This document shows, one piece after another, positions 48,585 through 55,515 of a stretch of 64,000 nt of DNA. Source of the DNA: Acidobacterium sp. (GTDB taxonomy: Bacteria; Acidobacteriota; Terriglobia; Terriglobales; Acidobacteriaceae); assembly GCA_003166955.1 (NCBI GenBank), contig PMUI01000019.1, forward strand, positions 124,001-188,000. Direction: 5' to 3'. The notes under the pieces are model-generated. The model was not told the DNA's origin, searched no databases, and saw only the letters and a program-made list of their open reading frames with translations. Made by a program: the position numbers and the translations under genes. Position 1 is the stretch's first letter. Every line of letters starts with the position of its first letter.

Positions 48585-49355
48585 TCACAGGACACGTGCA
48601 GTCTCCTTCAAATACTCCACCACCTGCTTCGCCGCCTCGCCCGCAGGAGCCTCAATCTTCCGCGTCTTCTTTTGGCTCCCCGGCACATACAGCTTCTCAA
48701 TCTTCTGCACGCTCTTCGACAACTTCCCCTCGACCTCCGCCCACGCCACCTTCCGCATCGGCTTCATCTTCGCCTGTTTGATGCCAATCAGCGTCGCATA
48801 CCGCAGCTTGTTGATTCCGCTCTGAATCGTCAGCACCGCCGGCATCGTCATCTCGATGTGTTGATAATGCCCCGCCTCCAGCTCGCGCTTCAGCTTCAGC
48901 CCCGTGTCGGTCTTCTCAATCCCAATGATGATCGTCGCGTGCGGAATCCCTAAAATCTCCGCCAGCAGCACGCCCGTCTGCGCCGCCCCAAAATCGTCAG
49001 ACTGCAGGCCGGTCACAATCAGGTCGAAATTCTCTCCCTCGATTGCCGCCGCCAGAGCCCGCGCCGTGTTCGCCGCATCCATCTGCGCAAACCGGTCGTC
49101 CTCCAGATGAATCGCCCGATCCGCGCCCTTGGCCAGCGCCTCCCGCAGCACCTGCTGCGACCGCGCCGGGCCCGCCGTGATCACCGCAACCTCGCCGCCG
49201 TGCTTTTCCTTCTGCCGTAGCGCCTCTTCCAGCGCGTACGCGTCCGGCTCGTTCGTCTCCCACGAGACGTCATCCCGAATCCAAGTCCCCTCGGGGTTCA
49301 GCCGCAGCGGCGCATCCTTCTGCGGAACCTGCTTGATGCAAACCAGGATCTTCAT
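48585..49355 (-). CDS. etfB: Electron transfer flavoprotein beta subunit
   Basis: About 256 residues with AMP-binding ETF-beta fold. The ATG at 49355 starts MKILVCIKQVPQKDAPLRL. NEPDAYALEEALR, VITAGPARSQQVLREALAKG and the signature region VTGLQSDDFGAAQTGVLLAE are typical. The C-terminus ends in AGEAAKQVVEYLKE. It heads the run etfB - small membrane protein - etfA - MFS - ETF-QO. Confidence 0.94.
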   Translation of the reverse strand: MKILVCIKQVPQKDAPLRLNPEGTWIRDDVSWETNEPDAYALEEALRQKEKHGGEVAVITAGPARSQQVLREALAKGADRAIHLEDDRFAQMDAANTARALAAAIEGENFDLIVTGLQSDDFGAAQTGVLLAEILGIPHATIIIGIEKTDTGLKLKRELEAGHYQHIEMTMPAVLTIQSGINKLRYATLIGIKQAKMKPMRKVAWAEVEGKLSKSVQKIEKLYVPGSQKKTRKIEAPAGEAAKQVVEYLKETARVL

Positions 49356-49427
49356 CGCAAGTGCAAAGTATAGCGGACGGCTCAAGAGCCCGGAAAACGT
49401 CCGCAACCCGCGTTATCATCAACGCGC

Positions 49428-49791
49428 ATGTCCCGCCTTCTCAGTGCCCACCCCACCCTGCGCGCCCGCAACATCAAAGCGCTCGCCGAGTGGTACCGCG
49501 ACATTCTGGGGTTCGAGATCCGGCTTCTCTGGGAGGACCCAGTCACCTTCTCCATCGTCGAACGGGACTCGGCCCGCTTCGGCATCTGCTCAGCGCGATG
49601 CGGCCTTCGGCCCGGTTGCCGCCTACGTCATCGTGGCGGACGTCGACGCCCTTTACGCCCAGTTCCTCGCCCGCCGTGTGTCCATCAACCGTCCCCTCGA
49701 AACAACGGATTACGCGATGAAGGACTTCGACCTCTTCGACCCTGAGGACAATCGCATCTGCTTCGGCCAGGGCGTCGACCCGGAACCCTAA
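49428..49791 (+). pseudogene. VOC/glyoxalase-fold protein with a frameshift
   Basis: The first frame gives LLSAHPTLRARNIKALAEWY and ILGFEIRLLWEDP, the first beta-alpha-beta unit of a VOC domain, up to ARFGI near 49583. The next frame gives AQRDAAFGPVAAYVIVADVD, MKDFDLFDPEDNRICFGQ and stops at 49789-49791. One surplus base near 49586 (or two missing) explains the split. Restored, the protein has about 120 residues, normal for this family. It could be a young pseudogene or a base-call error. Confidence 0.7.
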
Positions 49792-49798
49792 CCAGTTC

Positions 49799-50680
49799 CT
49801 ACTGCGGAACCGTCAGCTTCTTCCTCGGCGCAGACGCAGCAGACTGCGCATCCGAGTTCGCCGCCTGACCCTGATCCGCCCCACTCGCCGGATTTGCGCC
49901 ATCACCGGACATCGAAGCCAGCTCCGACTTCCGATACTTCGGCGCGCTCACATAGCCGTGAATGTGGTCCTTCGTGATGTCATTGATCACCAGCTGAATC
50001 GGCTGCTCGGTGTCCGGCTGATAAAACATCACCGGCTGATCGAGATTCACGTGCTTCTGCACCAGGTCGCGATCCTCCACCATCAACTCTAGGTCGGCAT
50101 ACTGATGTTTCAGGTTCGCCTTCCTCAAACTCACGCCCACCGGCCCTTCATGCGTGAAGGCCTTCGACCTCTGCAGATCGAATTCAAAGTAGCTGCGCTC
50201 GCCCCTCTTCTCCAGCACCACCAGCTCGTCGTGCGTCTTCGCAATCGATCCCGTCAGCTCCGTGCGCGTGCTCGCAAGATCGCCCTGCGCCTCCTCGATC
50301 GCTTTGCCCTGCGCATCCAGCTGCGCCTGCATCTTCGTCAGCCGCGGCTCCGCCGCCCGGCTCGCGCGAGGCTTCCCCGCCGCCCTGGCTCCCGTCACGA
50401 CCGCGGGCGTCGACGCCGGCGCAGCTGCCGCTGCAGGAGTCGCCGCCTGTGCCTCGCTGCGCACCGAAAGCTCACTCACCTTCGCCGTCAGCTGGTTCAG
50501 CTGACTCTGTGTCGCGCTCAACTGCGCTGTCACCTGCTGATTCTGCGCCGCCAGTTGTTCCGCCGCATGATGCTCATGCACCGCATAGCCCACTCCAGCC
50601 CCCGCAACCGCGACGGCCGCGATCAGCGGCGCGATGAACTTCACTACCGGGGATCCCGTTTGCATAGGGGAGTCTTCCAT
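49799..50680 (-). CDS. Membrane-anchored coiled-coil protein of unknown function
   Basis: About 293 residues from the ATG at 50680. A membrane helix (FIAPLIAAVAVAGAGVGYAV) is followed by a Gln-rich coiled coil (QNQQVTAQLSATQSQLNQL), an Ala-rich linker, and a second coiled coil (MQAQLDAQGKAIEEAQ). The C-terminal half contains a beta-rich domain (ERSYFEFDLQRSKAF, GVSLRKANLKHQYADLELMV) and a disordered tail. The IS1595 element inserted about 93 bases upstream of this start, so its promoter may have been displaced. Confidence 0.75.
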   Translation of the reverse strand: MEDSPMQTGSPVVKFIAPLIAAVAVAGAGVGYAVHEHHAAEQLAAQNQQVTAQLSATQSQLNQLTAKVSELSVRSEAQAATPAAAAAPASTPAVVTGARAAGKPRASRAAEPRLTKMQAQLDAQGKAIEEAQGDLASTRTELTGSIAKTHDELVVLEKRGERSYFEFDLQRSKAFTHEGPVGVSLRKANLKHQYADLELMVEDRDLVQKHVNLDQPVMFYQPDTEQPIQLVINDITKDHIHGYVSAPKYRKSELASMSGDGANPASGADQGQAANSDAQSAASAPRKKLTVPQ

Positions 50681-50772
50681 TTGCGTGCCTCCAAAGACAA
50701 AAATCCTTGCCCATGCAGCAAGCACGCCCCGTTCCACCCATGCTCATCAGTGAACCAGTGACTCTTCAATAA

Positions 50773-50780
50773 CTTGCCGG
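50773..50780. repeat. Target-site duplication, left copy
   Basis: CTTGCCGG directly precedes the left inverted repeat and is repeated exactly at 53616-53623 after the right one. Eight bases is the duplication length known for IS1595-family elements. Confidence 0.9.
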
Positions 50781-50805
50781 GGCAATAATATACTTGCCGA
50801 ATCAA
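50781..50805 (+). repeat. Left terminal inverted repeat of the IS1595 element
   Basis: GGCAATAATATACTTG continues with CCGAATCAA. Against the reverse complement of the right end it differs at positions 13, 17 and 19 only. Confidence 0.9.
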
Positions 50806-50959
50806 ACCCATTGGCGGATGATGGGGGTGGGAACGATGGGGATGGTGACGGGGATGCAGCCGGGGGCGCGTCGTGAAGCGCCCTCGCGTCTACCTGGATT
50901 TGGGCGCTCTCTCTCGCGCAATTTGGGGATCGCGCTATCTTGAGGAGAAATATTTTGCC

Positions 50960-51844
50960 ATGATCTCACCACTTCTCACTTCCTACCTTGATGAAAGCGC
51001 CGACAAAGAGCGCAAGGAGGTCCTATGCGTTGGGGGCATCCTGATAAACGAGAATATCCTTAGGCACATTCAGCCAGCGTGGGATGCCTGTCTCAACACC
51101 GCTGAGATTGCCTATTTTAGTTATTCGGATTGCAAGGGGCTTAACGAAGAATTCTTTCCCTACCGCGACAAATATAAGGACGGAGCTCACGATAAGGCTG
51201 CGACTGCCCTGGAGAACTTCGAGAACATATTGATTTCAGCACCTTGGGTGGGGTTTGGATTGGCAGTTATCTCATCAGACTATGCTGGGGTTCTCCGCGA
51301 CCGTCCGGCAGCATCTGTCTTCTTCAGGGAGAGTCCGACTGAATCAGCCTACGGCCAGATCATGTGCGAAATCGCTCGCGAGGTTAGGAAAAATGCAAAG
51401 GGTCATCAGGTCGCATATTTTATCGACGATTCGTCTGATTATCCGAAGATTGCGGATGTATTCCGCAGCATAAAGATCAATCAGCCAGTCCTCGGAACGA
51501 CTATGGTGAGCGTTGGCCCTCTGGATGATAAGCAGACTCCAGCATTACAGATGGCCGACTTGGTTGTAGGTATGACACGTGCGGCCTTTATGAATTGGAT
51601 TGCTCGCGGGAGGCCCAACACTCCAATTCTGGAGCACAAATGGTGGGATCACATAGAAGCGACATGGATATGGGACAGGGCGCACATGCTCAGGAATCTC
51701 CGCACCACGTTAAATAGTTCGCGGCTAAGGAAGGGTACCATCGCAGTGCGGCCATTACCCGAGCCCTCCAGCGCTGCACTTCGCAGACAGGAAAAAGCCA
51801 GAAGGAAAAAACTTGTGAAGGCGAGAAATGACAAGAAATCCTGA
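50960..51844 (+). CDS. DUF3800 domain protein (transposon cargo)
   Basis: About 294 residues from the ATG at 50960, chosen because DUF3800 proteins open with an acidic motif after a short beta strand, here LLTSYLDESADKE; a GTG at 50873 is also open. Other conserved points are VGGILINE, FSYSDCKGLNEEFF, VAYFIDDSSDYP and PALQMADLVVG. The spaced acidic residues (DES, DD, QMAD) suggest an RNase H-like nuclease fold, which is inference. The C-terminus is strongly basic. The next gene overlaps its end by 17 bases. Confidence 0.85.
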   Translation: MISPLLTSYLDESADKERKEVLCVGGILINENILRHIQPAWDACLNTAEIAYFSYSDCKGLNEEFFPYRDKYKDGAHDKAATALENFENILISAPWVGFGLAVISSDYAGVLRDRPAASVFFRESPTESAYGQIMCEIAREVRKNAKGHQVAYFIDDSSDYPKIADVFRSIKINQPVLGTTMVSVGPLDDKQTPALQMADLVVGMTRAAFMNWIARGRPNTPILEHKWWDHIEATWIWDRAHMLRNLRTTLNSSRLRKGTIAVRPLPEPSSAALRRQEKARRKKLVKARNDKKS

Positions 51845-51989
51845 ATACAAGAAGTTCAACAAAGCAATGGATACGATTCTCCGCGCCGATCCGAAGGCGG
51901 TGAAAGAAGCAATGGAGGCCGACAAACAGGCCAACGCCGAGAAGCGAAAAGCGAAGGCGGCAAAGCAGAAGGCGGATAGCCCAAAATGA
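51828..51989 (+). CDS. 53-residue basic protein overlapping the DUF3800 gene
   Basis: ATG at 51828 lies inside the end of the DUF3800 gene, and the TGA at 51987-51989 overlaps the next ATG (ATGA). The product begins TRNPEYKKFNKAMDTILRAD and continues as a charged, Lys/Ala/Glu-rich helix (AMEADKQANAEKRKAKAAKQ). I recall similar short proteins beside DUF3800 genes (a 'YxxFxxAlxxvL' opening), but this was not searched. Tight overlap on both sides supports co-translation with its neighbours. Confidence 0.7.
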   Translation: MTRNPEYKKFNKAMDTILRADPKAVKEAMEADKQANAEKRKAKAAKQKADSPK

Positions 51990-52264
51990 ACGCTCTACGA
52001 GCAGCCGCGTGGTTGTGCCTGATGGTTACAGTGATCGCATCGGGCTATTTGTGCTACGCGCTTTATGACAACGAAATCAACCTCGCATCTGTGAAGCAGA
52101 ACGAAGACTGCCTGGAGCTAGAAATGCGATACGGCGAGAATTATCCCTGCAAGACCGCTAACCACGCGCTGGAATATGGCGTGTCGGGCGGGATTGCAGT
52201 AGTCGGCCTGATTTCCTCATTAGCCATTCTTTGGGGCGGCGAAATCGAAACCGGGGGGGGCTAA
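51986..52264 (+). CDS. 92-residue membrane protein (transposon cargo)
   Basis: Two hydrophobic helices (AAAWLCLMVTVIASGYLCYAL and GVSGGIAVVGLISSLAIL) flank a polar loop with two cysteines (QNEDCLELEMRYGENYPCKT) that could form a disulfide outside the membrane. The gene ends in a run of eight Gs (52253-52260). Its ATG overlaps the stop of the 53-residue gene. No family recognised. Confidence 0.7.
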   Translation: MNALRAAAWLCLMVTVIASGYLCYALYDNEINLASVKQNEDCLELEMRYGENYPCKTANHALEYGVSGGIAVVGLISSLAILWGGEIETGGG

Positions 52265-52268
52265 AGCA

Positions 52269-52598
52269 TTGACGCGCCAGAATAAGCAGCTGATGGAACT
52301 GTCGGACATCCTCGCCTTCACGCTGACCTGTAAAGCCTGTGGCCTGTCCGTATCAGTCCCAACCGCTGAAAGGCAAGCGAGAGGGATGCTGAAAGAGAAC
52401 AGGCTGGATAAATGCCCAGCCTGCGATGAGGCATGGTTGACGAGTCCTAACGGCACCACGCTGACTCTCAGTTTCGATCAGATGCGTAGTTCTTTGGAGA
52501 CAATGACTCTCGCAATGAAAGAGCGGGCATTGTCAAAAGGCGGGTTCACACTTGCTCTGGAGATTTCTTCGGACCCCGCTTCTTCCGCCACGGATTAG
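52269..52598 (+). CDS. Zinc-ribbon protein (transposon cargo)
   Basis: About 109 residues from a TTG at 52269, or 101 from the ATG at 52293; neither has a clear ribosome-binding site apart from the G run upstream. LTCKACGLSVSVPT and DKCPACDEAWLTS give a four-cysteine zinc knuckle. The rest is mostly alpha-helical and polar. Its stop overlaps the convergent transposase stop. Function is unknown; regulation or nucleic-acid binding is possible. Confidence 0.65.
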   Translation: MTRQNKQLMELSDILAFTLTCKACGLSVSVPTAERQARGMLKENRLDKCPACDEAWLTSPNGTTLTLSFDQMRSSLETMTLAMKERALSKGGFTLALEISSDPASSATD

Positions 52599-53566
52599 AA
52601 GGGCGTGGCCTCCACCTTGCCGGTGAGTTCGGCATAGGTGAGCCGTTTCCCGGCAAGTTGCATCAGGAGAGCGGAGAAACGGTCAGCATCGTTCAGCGGG
52701 TTGTCTTTGGTAGCGCGATTGTTATAACGAAACATCTGCTCGTCAAGGTAACGGTCAAGATGAAAAGGTTCCACCGCAACGTAAGTTCCGCTCAGAGTCC
52801 GCTTCAGGAGCGACCAGAAGTTTTCGATGCCCTGAGTGTGAATCTGGCCACGCACATACTCTTCGACGTGGTTCACGGTTTCGTGGATGTATTCCTTCGC
52901 CGCCAGATTGTCGTATCCGGGATAGCCATCGGTGTAGACGGTGGTACCGCCTTCGATCTGGCTCAGGATGGCATTCTGGAGAGTCTCGCGTTTCACGTTC
53001 GGGATCACACGGGCACGCACCTGGCGGCTCTCCCGGTCCAACATCCCCATGACGATGGTTTTCTGATTCGCCTTCTCTGCGGTCTGCATTCTCAGGCGGC
53101 GCTCGCGGTGCATGTTTTTTGGCTTGCCGCCCACGAAAGTCTCATCGACTTCGACGGGGCCGGAATCATTGCCGCCCATCTTCAGGAGCGATCCGTTGGC
53201 CATCGCCTTGCGGATGCGATGCAGCATGAACCAGGCGGTTTTCTGAGTAACGCCCAGCGCCCGGTGAAGCTCATAGGAGCTGATCCCATTTTTCGAGTTG
53301 GCGACCATCCACACTGCCGGAAGCCACTTTTCAAGACCCAGCGGGGAATCCTCAAACACGGTGCCCACCTTGGCGGTGAACTGCCGCTTGGCATGGGCGC
53401 TCTTGCACTGCCACTTCCGCTGGGTCTTCAGGAAGGACACATCGGTGCGGCCACAGGTCGGGCAAACGACGCCAGAGGGCCAGCGGTGCGCGGCCATGTA
53501 CTCCAGGCAGTTGTCGGGGTCTGCGAAGTAGATTATGGCGTCCTGAAGAGTTTTTGGGTCTTTCAT
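52595..53566 (-). CDS. IS1595 family transposase
   Basis: About 323 residues from the ATG at 53566. The N-terminal zinc ribbon (VVCPTCGRTDVSFLKTQRKW) is followed by TVFEDSPLGLEKWLPAVWMV and the helix-turn-helix SSYELHRALGVTQKTAWFML. The ISXO2-like DDE domain has PVEVDETFVGGKPKN (first D), TTVYTDGYPGYDNLA (second D) and QGIENFWSLLKRTLSGTY (catalytic E with N). All parts are intact, so the enzyme may be active. An open frame extends to a TTG in the inverted repeat but starts outside the promoter. Confidence 0.95.
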   Translation of the reverse strand: MKDPKTLQDAIIYFADPDNCLEYMAAHRWPSGVVCPTCGRTDVSFLKTQRKWQCKSAHAKRQFTAKVGTVFEDSPLGLEKWLPAVWMVANSKNGISSYELHRALGVTQKTAWFMLHRIRKAMANGSLLKMGGNDSGPVEVDETFVGGKPKNMHRERRLRMQTAEKANQKTIVMGMLDRESRQVRARVIPNVKRETLQNAILSQIEGGTTVYTDGYPGYDNLAAKEYIHETVNHVEEYVRGQIHTQGIENFWSLLKRTLSGTYVAVEPFHLDRYLDEQMFRYNNRATKDNPLNDADRFSALLMQLAGKRLTYAELTGKVEATPF

Positions 53567-53573
53567 ATAAAAG

Positions 53574-53602
53574 ACTTTAACTCTTCGGAGTTGATTTGTC
53601 AA
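53574..53602 (-). promoter_or_regulatory. Transposase promoter in the right inverted repeat
   Basis: TTGACA (53602-53597) and TAAAGT (53579-53574) are 17 bases apart. The -10 box ends seven bases before the ATG at 53566, so transcripts may be leaderless. The -35 box lies within the inverted repeat; the matching bases at the left end read TTGCCG, so only this end forms the box. Confidence 0.5.
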
Positions 53603-53615
53603 CTATATTATTGCC
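53591..53615 (-). repeat. Right terminal inverted repeat of the IS1595 element
   Basis: On the minus strand it reads GGCAATAATATAGTTG then ACAAATCAA, matching the left end at 22 of 25 positions. It is followed at 53616-53623 by the second copy of the CTTGCCGG target duplication. Confidence 0.9.
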
Positions 53616-53832
53616 CTTGCCGGACTACGCAGCACTGCGGTCACCAGCAGAAATTCCCCGCCTCAGGAAAATCTTGCTCAACCAGGTTCTCGAATCCTCC
53701 CCAATCTCCTGCCCAAAACTCAGCAGTATCCGTTCGGATCTCGAACCGCTCCTTTGTTCGTCGCATGTCCTTCGTTTCCAATATCGGTATCAGCGCCAAA
53801 AATCGCATTCACGCCTCGTCCCTCGATACGAC

Positions 53833-53866
53833 AATTCGCGAGGCGAGTCCGCCTGGACGGCCAGTC
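53833..53866. repeat. Short dispersed repeat family C, copy 2
   Basis: TTCGCGAGGCGAGTCCGCCT and then GGACGGCCAGTCC match the copy at 31653-31684. It lies about 40 bases before the ABC-F start codon. The rest of 53624-53907 shows no gene. Confidence 0.55.
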
Positions 53867-53907
53867 CTCGAATAAAATAGAAGCATCCCTGATTCATTGA
53901 GAGCTGC

Positions 53908-55515
<1,608 letters not shown>

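Follow-up and report, generated by a model that had tools for sequence, protein, structure and literature searches.

The window analysed here, a 64,000-nucleotide stretch of Acidobacterium sp. DNA, contains at positions 50781-53615 a complete 2,835-bp mobile element of the IS1595 family, which belongs to a group of elements that share a fixed backbone and exchange their cargo. The backbone consists of 25-bp ends, the transposase and, usually, a basic protein of about 55 amino acids (aa), whose gene is mostly convergent with that of the transposase. The cargo occupies a slot usually bounded by the left end on one side and the small gene on the other, the elements insert with an 8-bp duplication, and the cargo is replaced independently of the backbone. 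Taken as a whole, these elements may be understood as transporter insertion sequences (tIS) that act as a reusable vehicle for swappable, mostly nuclease or growth-arrest cargo serving either defence or retention of the element, and we assign this reading a probability of roughly 0.6.

The window element and its insertion site

The terminal 25 bases of the element (GGCAATAATATACTTGCCGAATCAA and GGCAATAATATAGTTGACAAATCAA) are identical at 22 of 25 positions, with the left inverted repeat at 50781-50805 on the forward strand and the right one at 53591-53615 on the reverse strand. Directly outside the ends lie two perfect copies of the 8-bp target duplication CTTGCCGG, at 50773-50780 and, adjoining the right end, at 53616-53623. 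The same 8-mer occurs on the forward strand at four further places in the window, one of them within the element (52616), and only the pair at 50773 and 53616 abuts the ends; the rough expectation of finding such ends together with the duplication by chance in a 5-kb stretch is 1e-8. The G+C content of the element is 54% against 61% for the window. The genome of origin holds one full copy and seven partial matches, each of them either a similarity of 68-73% on the transposase side or a piece of 35 bp at 89%, and no full-length match was found elsewhere among the 12 genomes searched in the genus.

Searches with the flanks in these 12 genomes revealed an empty site in one of them (contig G008:C18), where the two flanks follow one another in the right order at a short distance. 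A model of the joined flanks aligned with this contig through the junction, over 300 bases before and 56 bases after it (363 columns with gaps, 73.6% identity), and the junction carries one diverged copy of the target, TTTGCCG. The flank matches in G009 are about 0.8 kb apart, beyond the prediction of the model, and those in G001 are on opposite strands, and thus neither genome offers a clean empty-site comparison. A reading of the window made earlier from the sequence alone (the sequence-only reading) had proposed 25-bp repeats matching at 22 positions, a perfect duplication, and a complete element with exact boundaries; the comparison of the ends, the duplication abutting both of them, the empty site it had suggested looking for, present in one genome, and a sister element that ends at homologous places all bear this out. 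It had also called the insertion recent, which fits the perfect duplication and the intact frames, with the one clean empty site found being only about 74% identical in DNA.

The transposase gene (52595-53602, reverse strand) encodes an ISXO2-like DDE domain and an N-terminal zinc ribbon, with matches well over the cut-offs for PF12762 (1.8e-44; 151.8 bits, cut-off 27), PF12760 (5.8e-12; 45.8 bits, cut-off 25.4) and NF033547 (3.2e-59; 200.4 bits, cut-off 75), which together with the repeats of about 25 bp and the 8-bp duplication agrees with the assignment to IS1595 made in the sequence-only reading. Residues C47, C50, C66, D153, D225, E260 and K267 are invariant among 17 aligned transposases, and the protein more probably starts at ATG 53564-53566, just past a -10-like box, than at a TTG. 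The other four genes are on the forward strand. The DUF3800 protein (50873-51844; PF12686 at 1.4e-5, 26.3 bits, cut-off 21) has an uncertain start, either GTG 50873, giving the 323 aa called, or ATG 50960, giving 294 aa. It is adjoined and overlapped by the small gene of 53 aa (51828-51989), followed by a gene for a 92-aa cargo protein with two hydrophobic stretches and no family match (51986-52264) and by that for a 109-aa zinc-ribbon-like protein with two CxxC pairs and only sub-threshold Pfam matches (52269-52598), the stop of which overlaps the transposase stop by 4 nucleotides (nt). The frames are as they had been described previously, and the four genes then counted as cargo are all present; two of them need to be reclassified, since the 53-residue gene is part of the backbone (64 of 72 elements) and the zinc-ribbon gene recurs as an optional module (in 4 of 72). 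Since it combines matching ends, a duplication and an IS1595 transposase, the window element is a tIS, i.e., of a kind already described, and in the window as in its relatives one insertion sequence (IS) transposase and its passengers are enclosed by one pair of ends.

Relatives of the element

The end pattern, with one mismatch allowed, was found in 33 of 200 genomes of the family, and its reversed control in none. Among 38 stretches inspected (the window, the locus L020 of a same-genus sister, and 36 further loci), 21 have paired ends; many of the 17 that lack an end pair end at contig ends. Both flanks are available for 20 of these first 21 elements, and the 8-bp duplication is exact in 19 of the 20 and matches at 7 of 8 positions in one, a count that is freer than the later ones and not wholly independent, as the pair score also weighed the duplication. 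A second set came from a transposase-alignment scan of named genomes, of which the best 80 of 574 loci were taken and searched with a motif-blind finder for a repeat with a duplication. Some candidate pair was obtained for 74 of the 80 loci, and 54 passed a strict test (GG...CC ends, a repeat of at least 17/25, a duplication of at least 7/8). Three of the 54 are identical to earlier elements and the remaining 51 together with the first 21 make 72 distinct elements; L152, with a 21/25 repeat, an exact duplication and one end starting with AG, was left out by the GG rule, and L163 was left out by name.

The 72 elements span 1,601 to 4,274 bp and none is a bare IS, which we estimate at about 1.1 kb from the length of the transposase. 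The transposase profile matches 71 of them, the exception being L118; the frame is split in two in L087 and L169, truncated in L097, and departs from the family sequence near its end in L020. By label, Acidobacteriota make up 44 of the 51 named carriers; nearly all of these are metagenome bins, whose labels can be wrong, and the other seven are labelled Actinobacteria, Acidimicrobiia, Deltaproteobacteria, Nevskia, Binatus, Phenylobacterium and "bacterium". The duplication is exact in 68 of the 71 elements with both flanks, a figure that is not independent for the 51 elements because the finder demanded at least 7/8. The target site is A+T-rich and palindrome-like, with C first in 36 of 68 cases and G last in 37 of 68, and a G+C content of 40% against 59% in the left-hand flanks.

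The genome of the window contains 11 IS1595 transposase matches in all and a second complete element of the group (contig G000:C17; L106:2001-4400), which has the duplication TCTGCAAG, a main cargo different from that of the window element and the same kind of zinc-ribbon gene. Among plasmid records, 41 match the transposase, and six of them (L203-L208) were opened. Two, from alphaproteobacterial plasmids, contain IS1595 elements whose ends match at 20/25 positions and whose 8-bp duplications are exact (L203:693-4105 in Methylobacterium oryzae pMOC1 and L206:3918-6521 in Roseomonas marmotae p1318-1), and in each a PIN/VapC-type gene is accompanied by a partner gene and by a gene of about 61 aa; the PIN gene of L203 has no match in PADLOC. 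L205 has similar ends with a 7/8 duplication that lies within an A-run, no convincing ends were found in L204, L207 and L208, and the small-gene profile matches none of the six opened records. Among phages, the transposase matches two unannotated faecal records at 34-36% identity.

Turnover of the cargo

The sister element L020 (G005:C58; 2,380 bp) has the same kind of ends and a duplication of its own, CCGACAAC. Its transposase is 82% identical to that of the window element and it encodes a 61-aa homologue of the 53-aa protein, while the DUF3800 proteins of the two are 13% identical in the family alignment. At the DNA level the two elements can be aligned only over their first 28 bases, a 66-base part of the small gene and the final 1.06 kb, i.e., the backbone is shared and the middle is different. 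A similar picture is seen for L098 (RelA/SpoT cargo) and L100 (AbiU cargo), which are 83% identical over the left 65 bases, 75% over 95 bases around the start of the small gene and 70-80% over parts of the transposase, with nothing alignable in between.

The comparison of cargo across copies, which the sequence-only reading had recommended, was extended to all 72 elements, with DUF3800 found in 28 and other families elsewhere. There are 22 pairs of elements whose transposases are at least 70% identical, and only one of these pairs (L179 and L190) has cargo similarity detectable by blastp. Two pairs share a cargo family, DUF3800 in both cases (L179-L190 and the window element with L020), and seven carry two different labelled families, as in L177 (DUF3800) and L185 (RusA-like), with transposases 86% identical. 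On a quickly built tree of 70 transposases the DUF3800 label requires 13 changes against a mean of 13.6 after shuffling (226 of 500 shuffles are as low), and the four main cargo labels together require 17 against 15.7. As the labels change about as often as shuffled ones, the cargo is not inherited with the backbone, and, since close pairs so rarely share a cargo family, it must have been swapped. This turnover suggests that the cargo is unrelated to transposition.

Contents of the slot

The cargo set comprises 125 open reading frames (ORFs) of at least 100 aa from the 72 elements, and because genes were called by the longest frame, some of the short ones are probably false. Pfam searches (E<=1e-3) recognised DUF3800 in 19 of these ORFs, RelA_SpoT in three and DUF2513 in two; AIPR, GmrSD_N, SocA_Panacea, PemK (2e-6, in L124), AAA_15, Peptidase_M78, DUF6932, DUF7689, Clp protease and others were matched once each, and owners of single matches were traced to L100, L096, L104, L124, L197, L199, L154 and L155. 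With local iterated profiles, DUF3800 is found in 28 elements, a HEPN-like protein with an invariant Rx4H motif in nine and a RusA-like protein in five; these three families and RelA/SpoT, which is present in three elements, account for 45 of the 72. AbiU, GmrSD, PemK, OLD-like and PDC-M63 genes are found in further slots. The name HEPN-like reflects the Rx4H motif and weak matches of the L087 protein to Pfam HEPN (0.049) and to Csx1/Csm6 of PADLOC (5.8e-4). The model of the RusA-like protein (predicted local distance difference test, pLDDT, 71) has RusA in its best three Foldseek rows (E 3.4e-3 to 1.3e-2), and the RusA-like label also draws on a sequence motif.

Searches against PADLOC gave near full-length matches for AbiU (4.8e-171, L100) and PDC-S33 (2.5e-97, 9e-109 and 7.3e-115, spread over L098, L104 and L126), a partial match for PDC-M63A (1.4e-26), which stands side by side with PDC-M63B (4e-4) in L199, and matches to NsnA (1.8e-30, L096), NsnB (8e-41, an NsnB/AriA-like protein in L197) and capP (3.9e-26, L181). 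The 3.5-kb element L104:1206-4705 combines a SocA/Panacea-domain gene, an unmatched 124-aa neighbour and a PDC-S33 RelA/SpoT gene. By all these readings, 51 of the 72 elements hold at least one gene of nuclease, toxin or defence type.

The DUF3800 protein

The AlphaFold (AF2) model of the window DUF3800 protein, computed from an alignment of 28 rows, has a mean pLDDT of 80.4 and a predicted template modelling score of 0.75. Its best Foldseek matches are RNase HII proteins (E 6.6e-5 and 7.9e-5), and the first 11 rows obtained with VIA-align are RNase HII/H2 proteins, one of them an RNase H3, with Z of 10.0-11.0 over 166-191 residues and a root-mean-square deviation (rmsd) of 3.6-6.7; the top row is RNase HII (Z 11.0, rmsd 6.7, 191 residues aligned). 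D40, in the motif DES, and D229, in LQMAD, are invariant in the 28 aligned cargo DUF3800 proteins. The profile match over the cut-off, the conserved acidic residues and the predicted RNase H fold are in accord with membership in DUF3800 (PF12686), and the model indicates that the protein is likely an active nuclease with an RNase HII-like fold. Among the sequences of solved structures, all matches to the DUF3800, HEPN-like and RusA-like profiles were weak and looked unrelated (best E 0.025, 0.044 and 0.69, respectively). The window DUF3800 protein has no match in phage and plasmid records at E 1e-4, and no DUF3800-associated RNA motif was found with Rfam, either in 14 loci (E<=1) or across the whole window (gathering scores).

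The RNase HII-like model of DUF3800 and the RusA matches of the RusA-like model, the latter only at E of 3e-3 to 1e-2, could also mean that the slot genes are accessories of transposition, one of which is needed by the element and resolves or processes transposition intermediates. We regard this as very improbable: the slots of sister elements also hold RelA/SpoT, AbiU, HEPN-like, OLD-like and membrane proteins, for all of which a single shared step in transposition is impossible, and on the tree of transposases the types of cargo are scattered at random.

The small gene and the predicted promoters at the ends

The profile of the basic small protein matches 64 of the 72 elements (E<=0.01); it was built from members found in the first 21 elements, which therefore match by construction. 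The stop of the small gene overlaps that of the convergent transposase gene by exactly 4 nt in 35 of the 58 elements in which the small gene has the same direction. A zinc-ribbon gene, which is present in the window element, L098, L106 and L158, stands between the small gene and the transposase in the first three of these and overlaps in place of the small gene. The small gene has 56 matches in 90 genomes of the family, and 36 of these have an IS1595 transposase at most 2.5 kb away (0.3 expected), in 33 cases on the opposite strand. Since only 36 of the 135 IS1595 transposases have a small gene nearby, it marks one group within IS1595. Pfam searches with 18 small proteins found no family matching more than one of them. 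Because the small protein is constant while the cargo changes, our guess is that it serves the element, perhaps by binding DNA or RNA or by regulating transposition.

Alternatively, the element could be an addiction module that kills cells losing it, with the cargo as the toxin and the small protein as the antidote; in the window, the 92-aa or the zinc-ribbon protein could take the antidote's role instead. HEPN, RelA/SpoT and PemK are known toxin folds, in 15 of 58 elements an overlap of 1 or 4 nt joins the stop of the cargo gene to an in-frame start of the small gene, and L093 (615-1685) and L137 (5993-7177) each encode DUF3800 and the small protein in a single open frame, as though the two were fused. 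The two plasmid relatives with PIN/VapC genes inside ends with exact duplications also fit an addiction module, and so does the carriage of toxin-antitoxin pairs by Tn3 transposons (PMC7157771). In the window, an overlapping small gene adjoins the DUF3800 gene, and no antitoxin family was matched at the cut-off. The occurrence of one small-protein family beside many unrelated cargo folds, however, is unlike the behaviour of specific antitoxins, and the small gene is missing from 8 of the 72 elements. This explanation is thus unlikely, though it deserves to be taken seriously.

Both ends of the window element appear to contain part of an inward promoter. The predicted cargo promoter (50794-50822, forward strand) has a -35 box TTGCCG (50794-50799) within the left repeat, a 17-bp spacer and a -10 box GATGAT (50817-50822), and the predicted transposase promoter (53574-53602, reverse strand) has TTGACA (53597-53602) within the right repeat, again a 17-bp spacer, and TAAAGT (53574-53579). 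The right ends of the 72 elements carry TTGAC in the repeat and, 17 bp inward, a peak of -10-like hexamers that average 3.83 of 6 matches to TATAAT, with at least 4 of 6 in 74% of elements against 7% at control places; the left ends have a weaker peak near the same spacing, with at least 4 of 6 in 44% against 8%. These are consensus matches, and the promoters are putative rather than mapped.

Weighing the readings

Under the preferred reading, that of a reusable vehicle with swappable cargo, each end would supply the -35-like box of an inward promoter, stronger into the transposase and weaker into the slot, and the cargo would mostly cleave nucleic acids or arrest growth, either protecting the cell from phages and other mobile DNA or making loss of the element costly. 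The cargo may thus have anti-phage or toxin functions, and the window version would carry its RNase H-fold nuclease, DUF3800, as such a protective or loss-penalising gene. A different explanation is that these are ordinary tIS with arbitrary passengers, which pick up any nearby gene with no functional theme, as passengers are known in IS1595 elements (PMC5704250 and PMC3129680). The composition of the slots argues against this: 125 ORFs drawn at random from 373 flanking ones, called in the same way, contain 127 Pfam families (of which 25 are listed, mostly housekeeping), whereas the 125 cargo ORFs contain 18, with DUF3800 alone in 19 ORFs, and four families recur in 45 of the 72 elements. Among all 373 flanking ORFs, the DUF3800 profile matches one, the HEPN profile one and the RusA and RelA/SpoT profiles none, against 28 of 125 cargo ORFs for DUF3800, a comparison that favours the cargo because the local DUF3800 and HEPN profiles were made from it. 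Arbitrary passengers therefore seem to us a rather improbable explanation.

Several observations nevertheless weigh against the preferred reading, the first two of which also count in favour of arbitrary passengers. The cargo of 21 of the 72 elements (membrane proteins, a Clp-like protease, unknowns) has no toxin or defence reading. The excess of PADLOC matches is modest and suggestive only, with 8 of 125 cargo ORFs matched at E<=1e-20 against at least 2 of 125 in the random flanking sample (one protein by Cas3 models and one by SoFic). None of the five window proteins matches a PADLOC family at E<=1, which by this search places the element in no known defence system, and the DUF3800 proteins of L164, L177 and L193, searched singly, also have no match. 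Of the 29 DUF3800 genes in the 90 family genomes, 10 have an IS1595 transposase at most 3.5 kb away, where 0.2 would be expected, but 19 do not, and 20 of the 56 small-gene matches are likewise not near one. Six of the 64 small-gene matches, weak ones included, are reversed. Finally, 7 of the 28 elements with DUF3800 have this gene oriented towards the left end, so that the left-end promoter is unable to drive it there.

The usual places to look for defence genes are large islands, prophages and plasmids. If the preferred reading is true, such genes would have a simple vehicle in a compact transposon that has a single gene slot, exact ends and quickly changing cargo, and its ends could be used as a search key: genes between such ends and the small gene would be candidate defence or toxin genes, and the roles of DUF3800 and of several unnamed families would become directly testable. 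It is tempting to go further and to view the elements as 2-4 kb "defence shuttles", in which the IS1595 ends are a built-in expression site, the protein of about 55 aa is a companion for any cargo, and the slot amounts to a store of new, mostly unread anti-phage genes, with DUF3800 nucleases first among them; the companion might then promote the exchange of cassettes or restrain the cargo until the element has settled. We offer this extension tentatively and give it less than even odds.

Surroundings of the insertion

The interval 49406-53908, between the gene at 48585-49406 and an ABC-F-like gene at 53908, is variable in the genus. In G003, G004, G005, G007 and G010 the start of the first of these genes is at most about 80 bp from the match to the ABC-F-like gene, leaving no room for the gene at 49799-50737. 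A stretch of about 33 bp in the right flank (53837-53869) recurs at many places in 10 of the 12 genus genomes; its 21-bp core is present at 8 places in the genome of the window (at most 2 mismatches allowed) and the reversed control at none, and the folding of the corresponding RNA is unremarkable (z -0.90).

Comparison with known systems

Among previously described elements comparable to the one in the window, MTnSag1 is a resistance-carrying element. IS1595 elements with passengers, 25-bp ends and 8-bp duplications are known as tIS (PMC5704250 and PMC3129680), and tISCpe8 and MTnSag1/tISSag10 share with the window element an IS1595-family DDE transposase, 25-bp repeats, an 8-bp duplication and an internal passenger gene (PMC5704250). 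tISCpe8 is a lincomycin-resistance element, and both it and MTnSag1 are described as mobilizable; the window group instead carries DUF3800 and other nuclease- or toxin-type cargo and, unlike these two elements, has a constant gene of about 55 aa and a swappable slot, and is found mostly in Acidobacteriota. Tn3-family transposons with toxin-antitoxin modules likewise exchange toxin-type genes at one particular place of the transposon backbone (PMC7157771), but they have a transposase of the Tn3 family and carry toxin-antitoxin pairs, while the window element has no recognised antitoxin. A predicted RNase H fold for DUF3800 (PF12686) has already been published (PMC10910872) for this group of proteins, which includes the Cas12a2-linked TPR-DUF3800; the window protein shares the predicted fold and differs in that no DUF3800-associated RNA family was found with Rfam. 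The PADLOC candidates PDC-S33 and PDC-M63, and AbiU, have counterparts in the cargo of sister elements and none in the window element itself. No published account of IS1595 elements that carry DUF3800, or of the small gene and the slot, was found in the literature searched, the scope of which did not extend to ISfinder, Siguier 2009 and subscription papers. The tIS as such is already known, and the new part is the pattern across relatives, in which a shared backbone is combined with swapped cargo.

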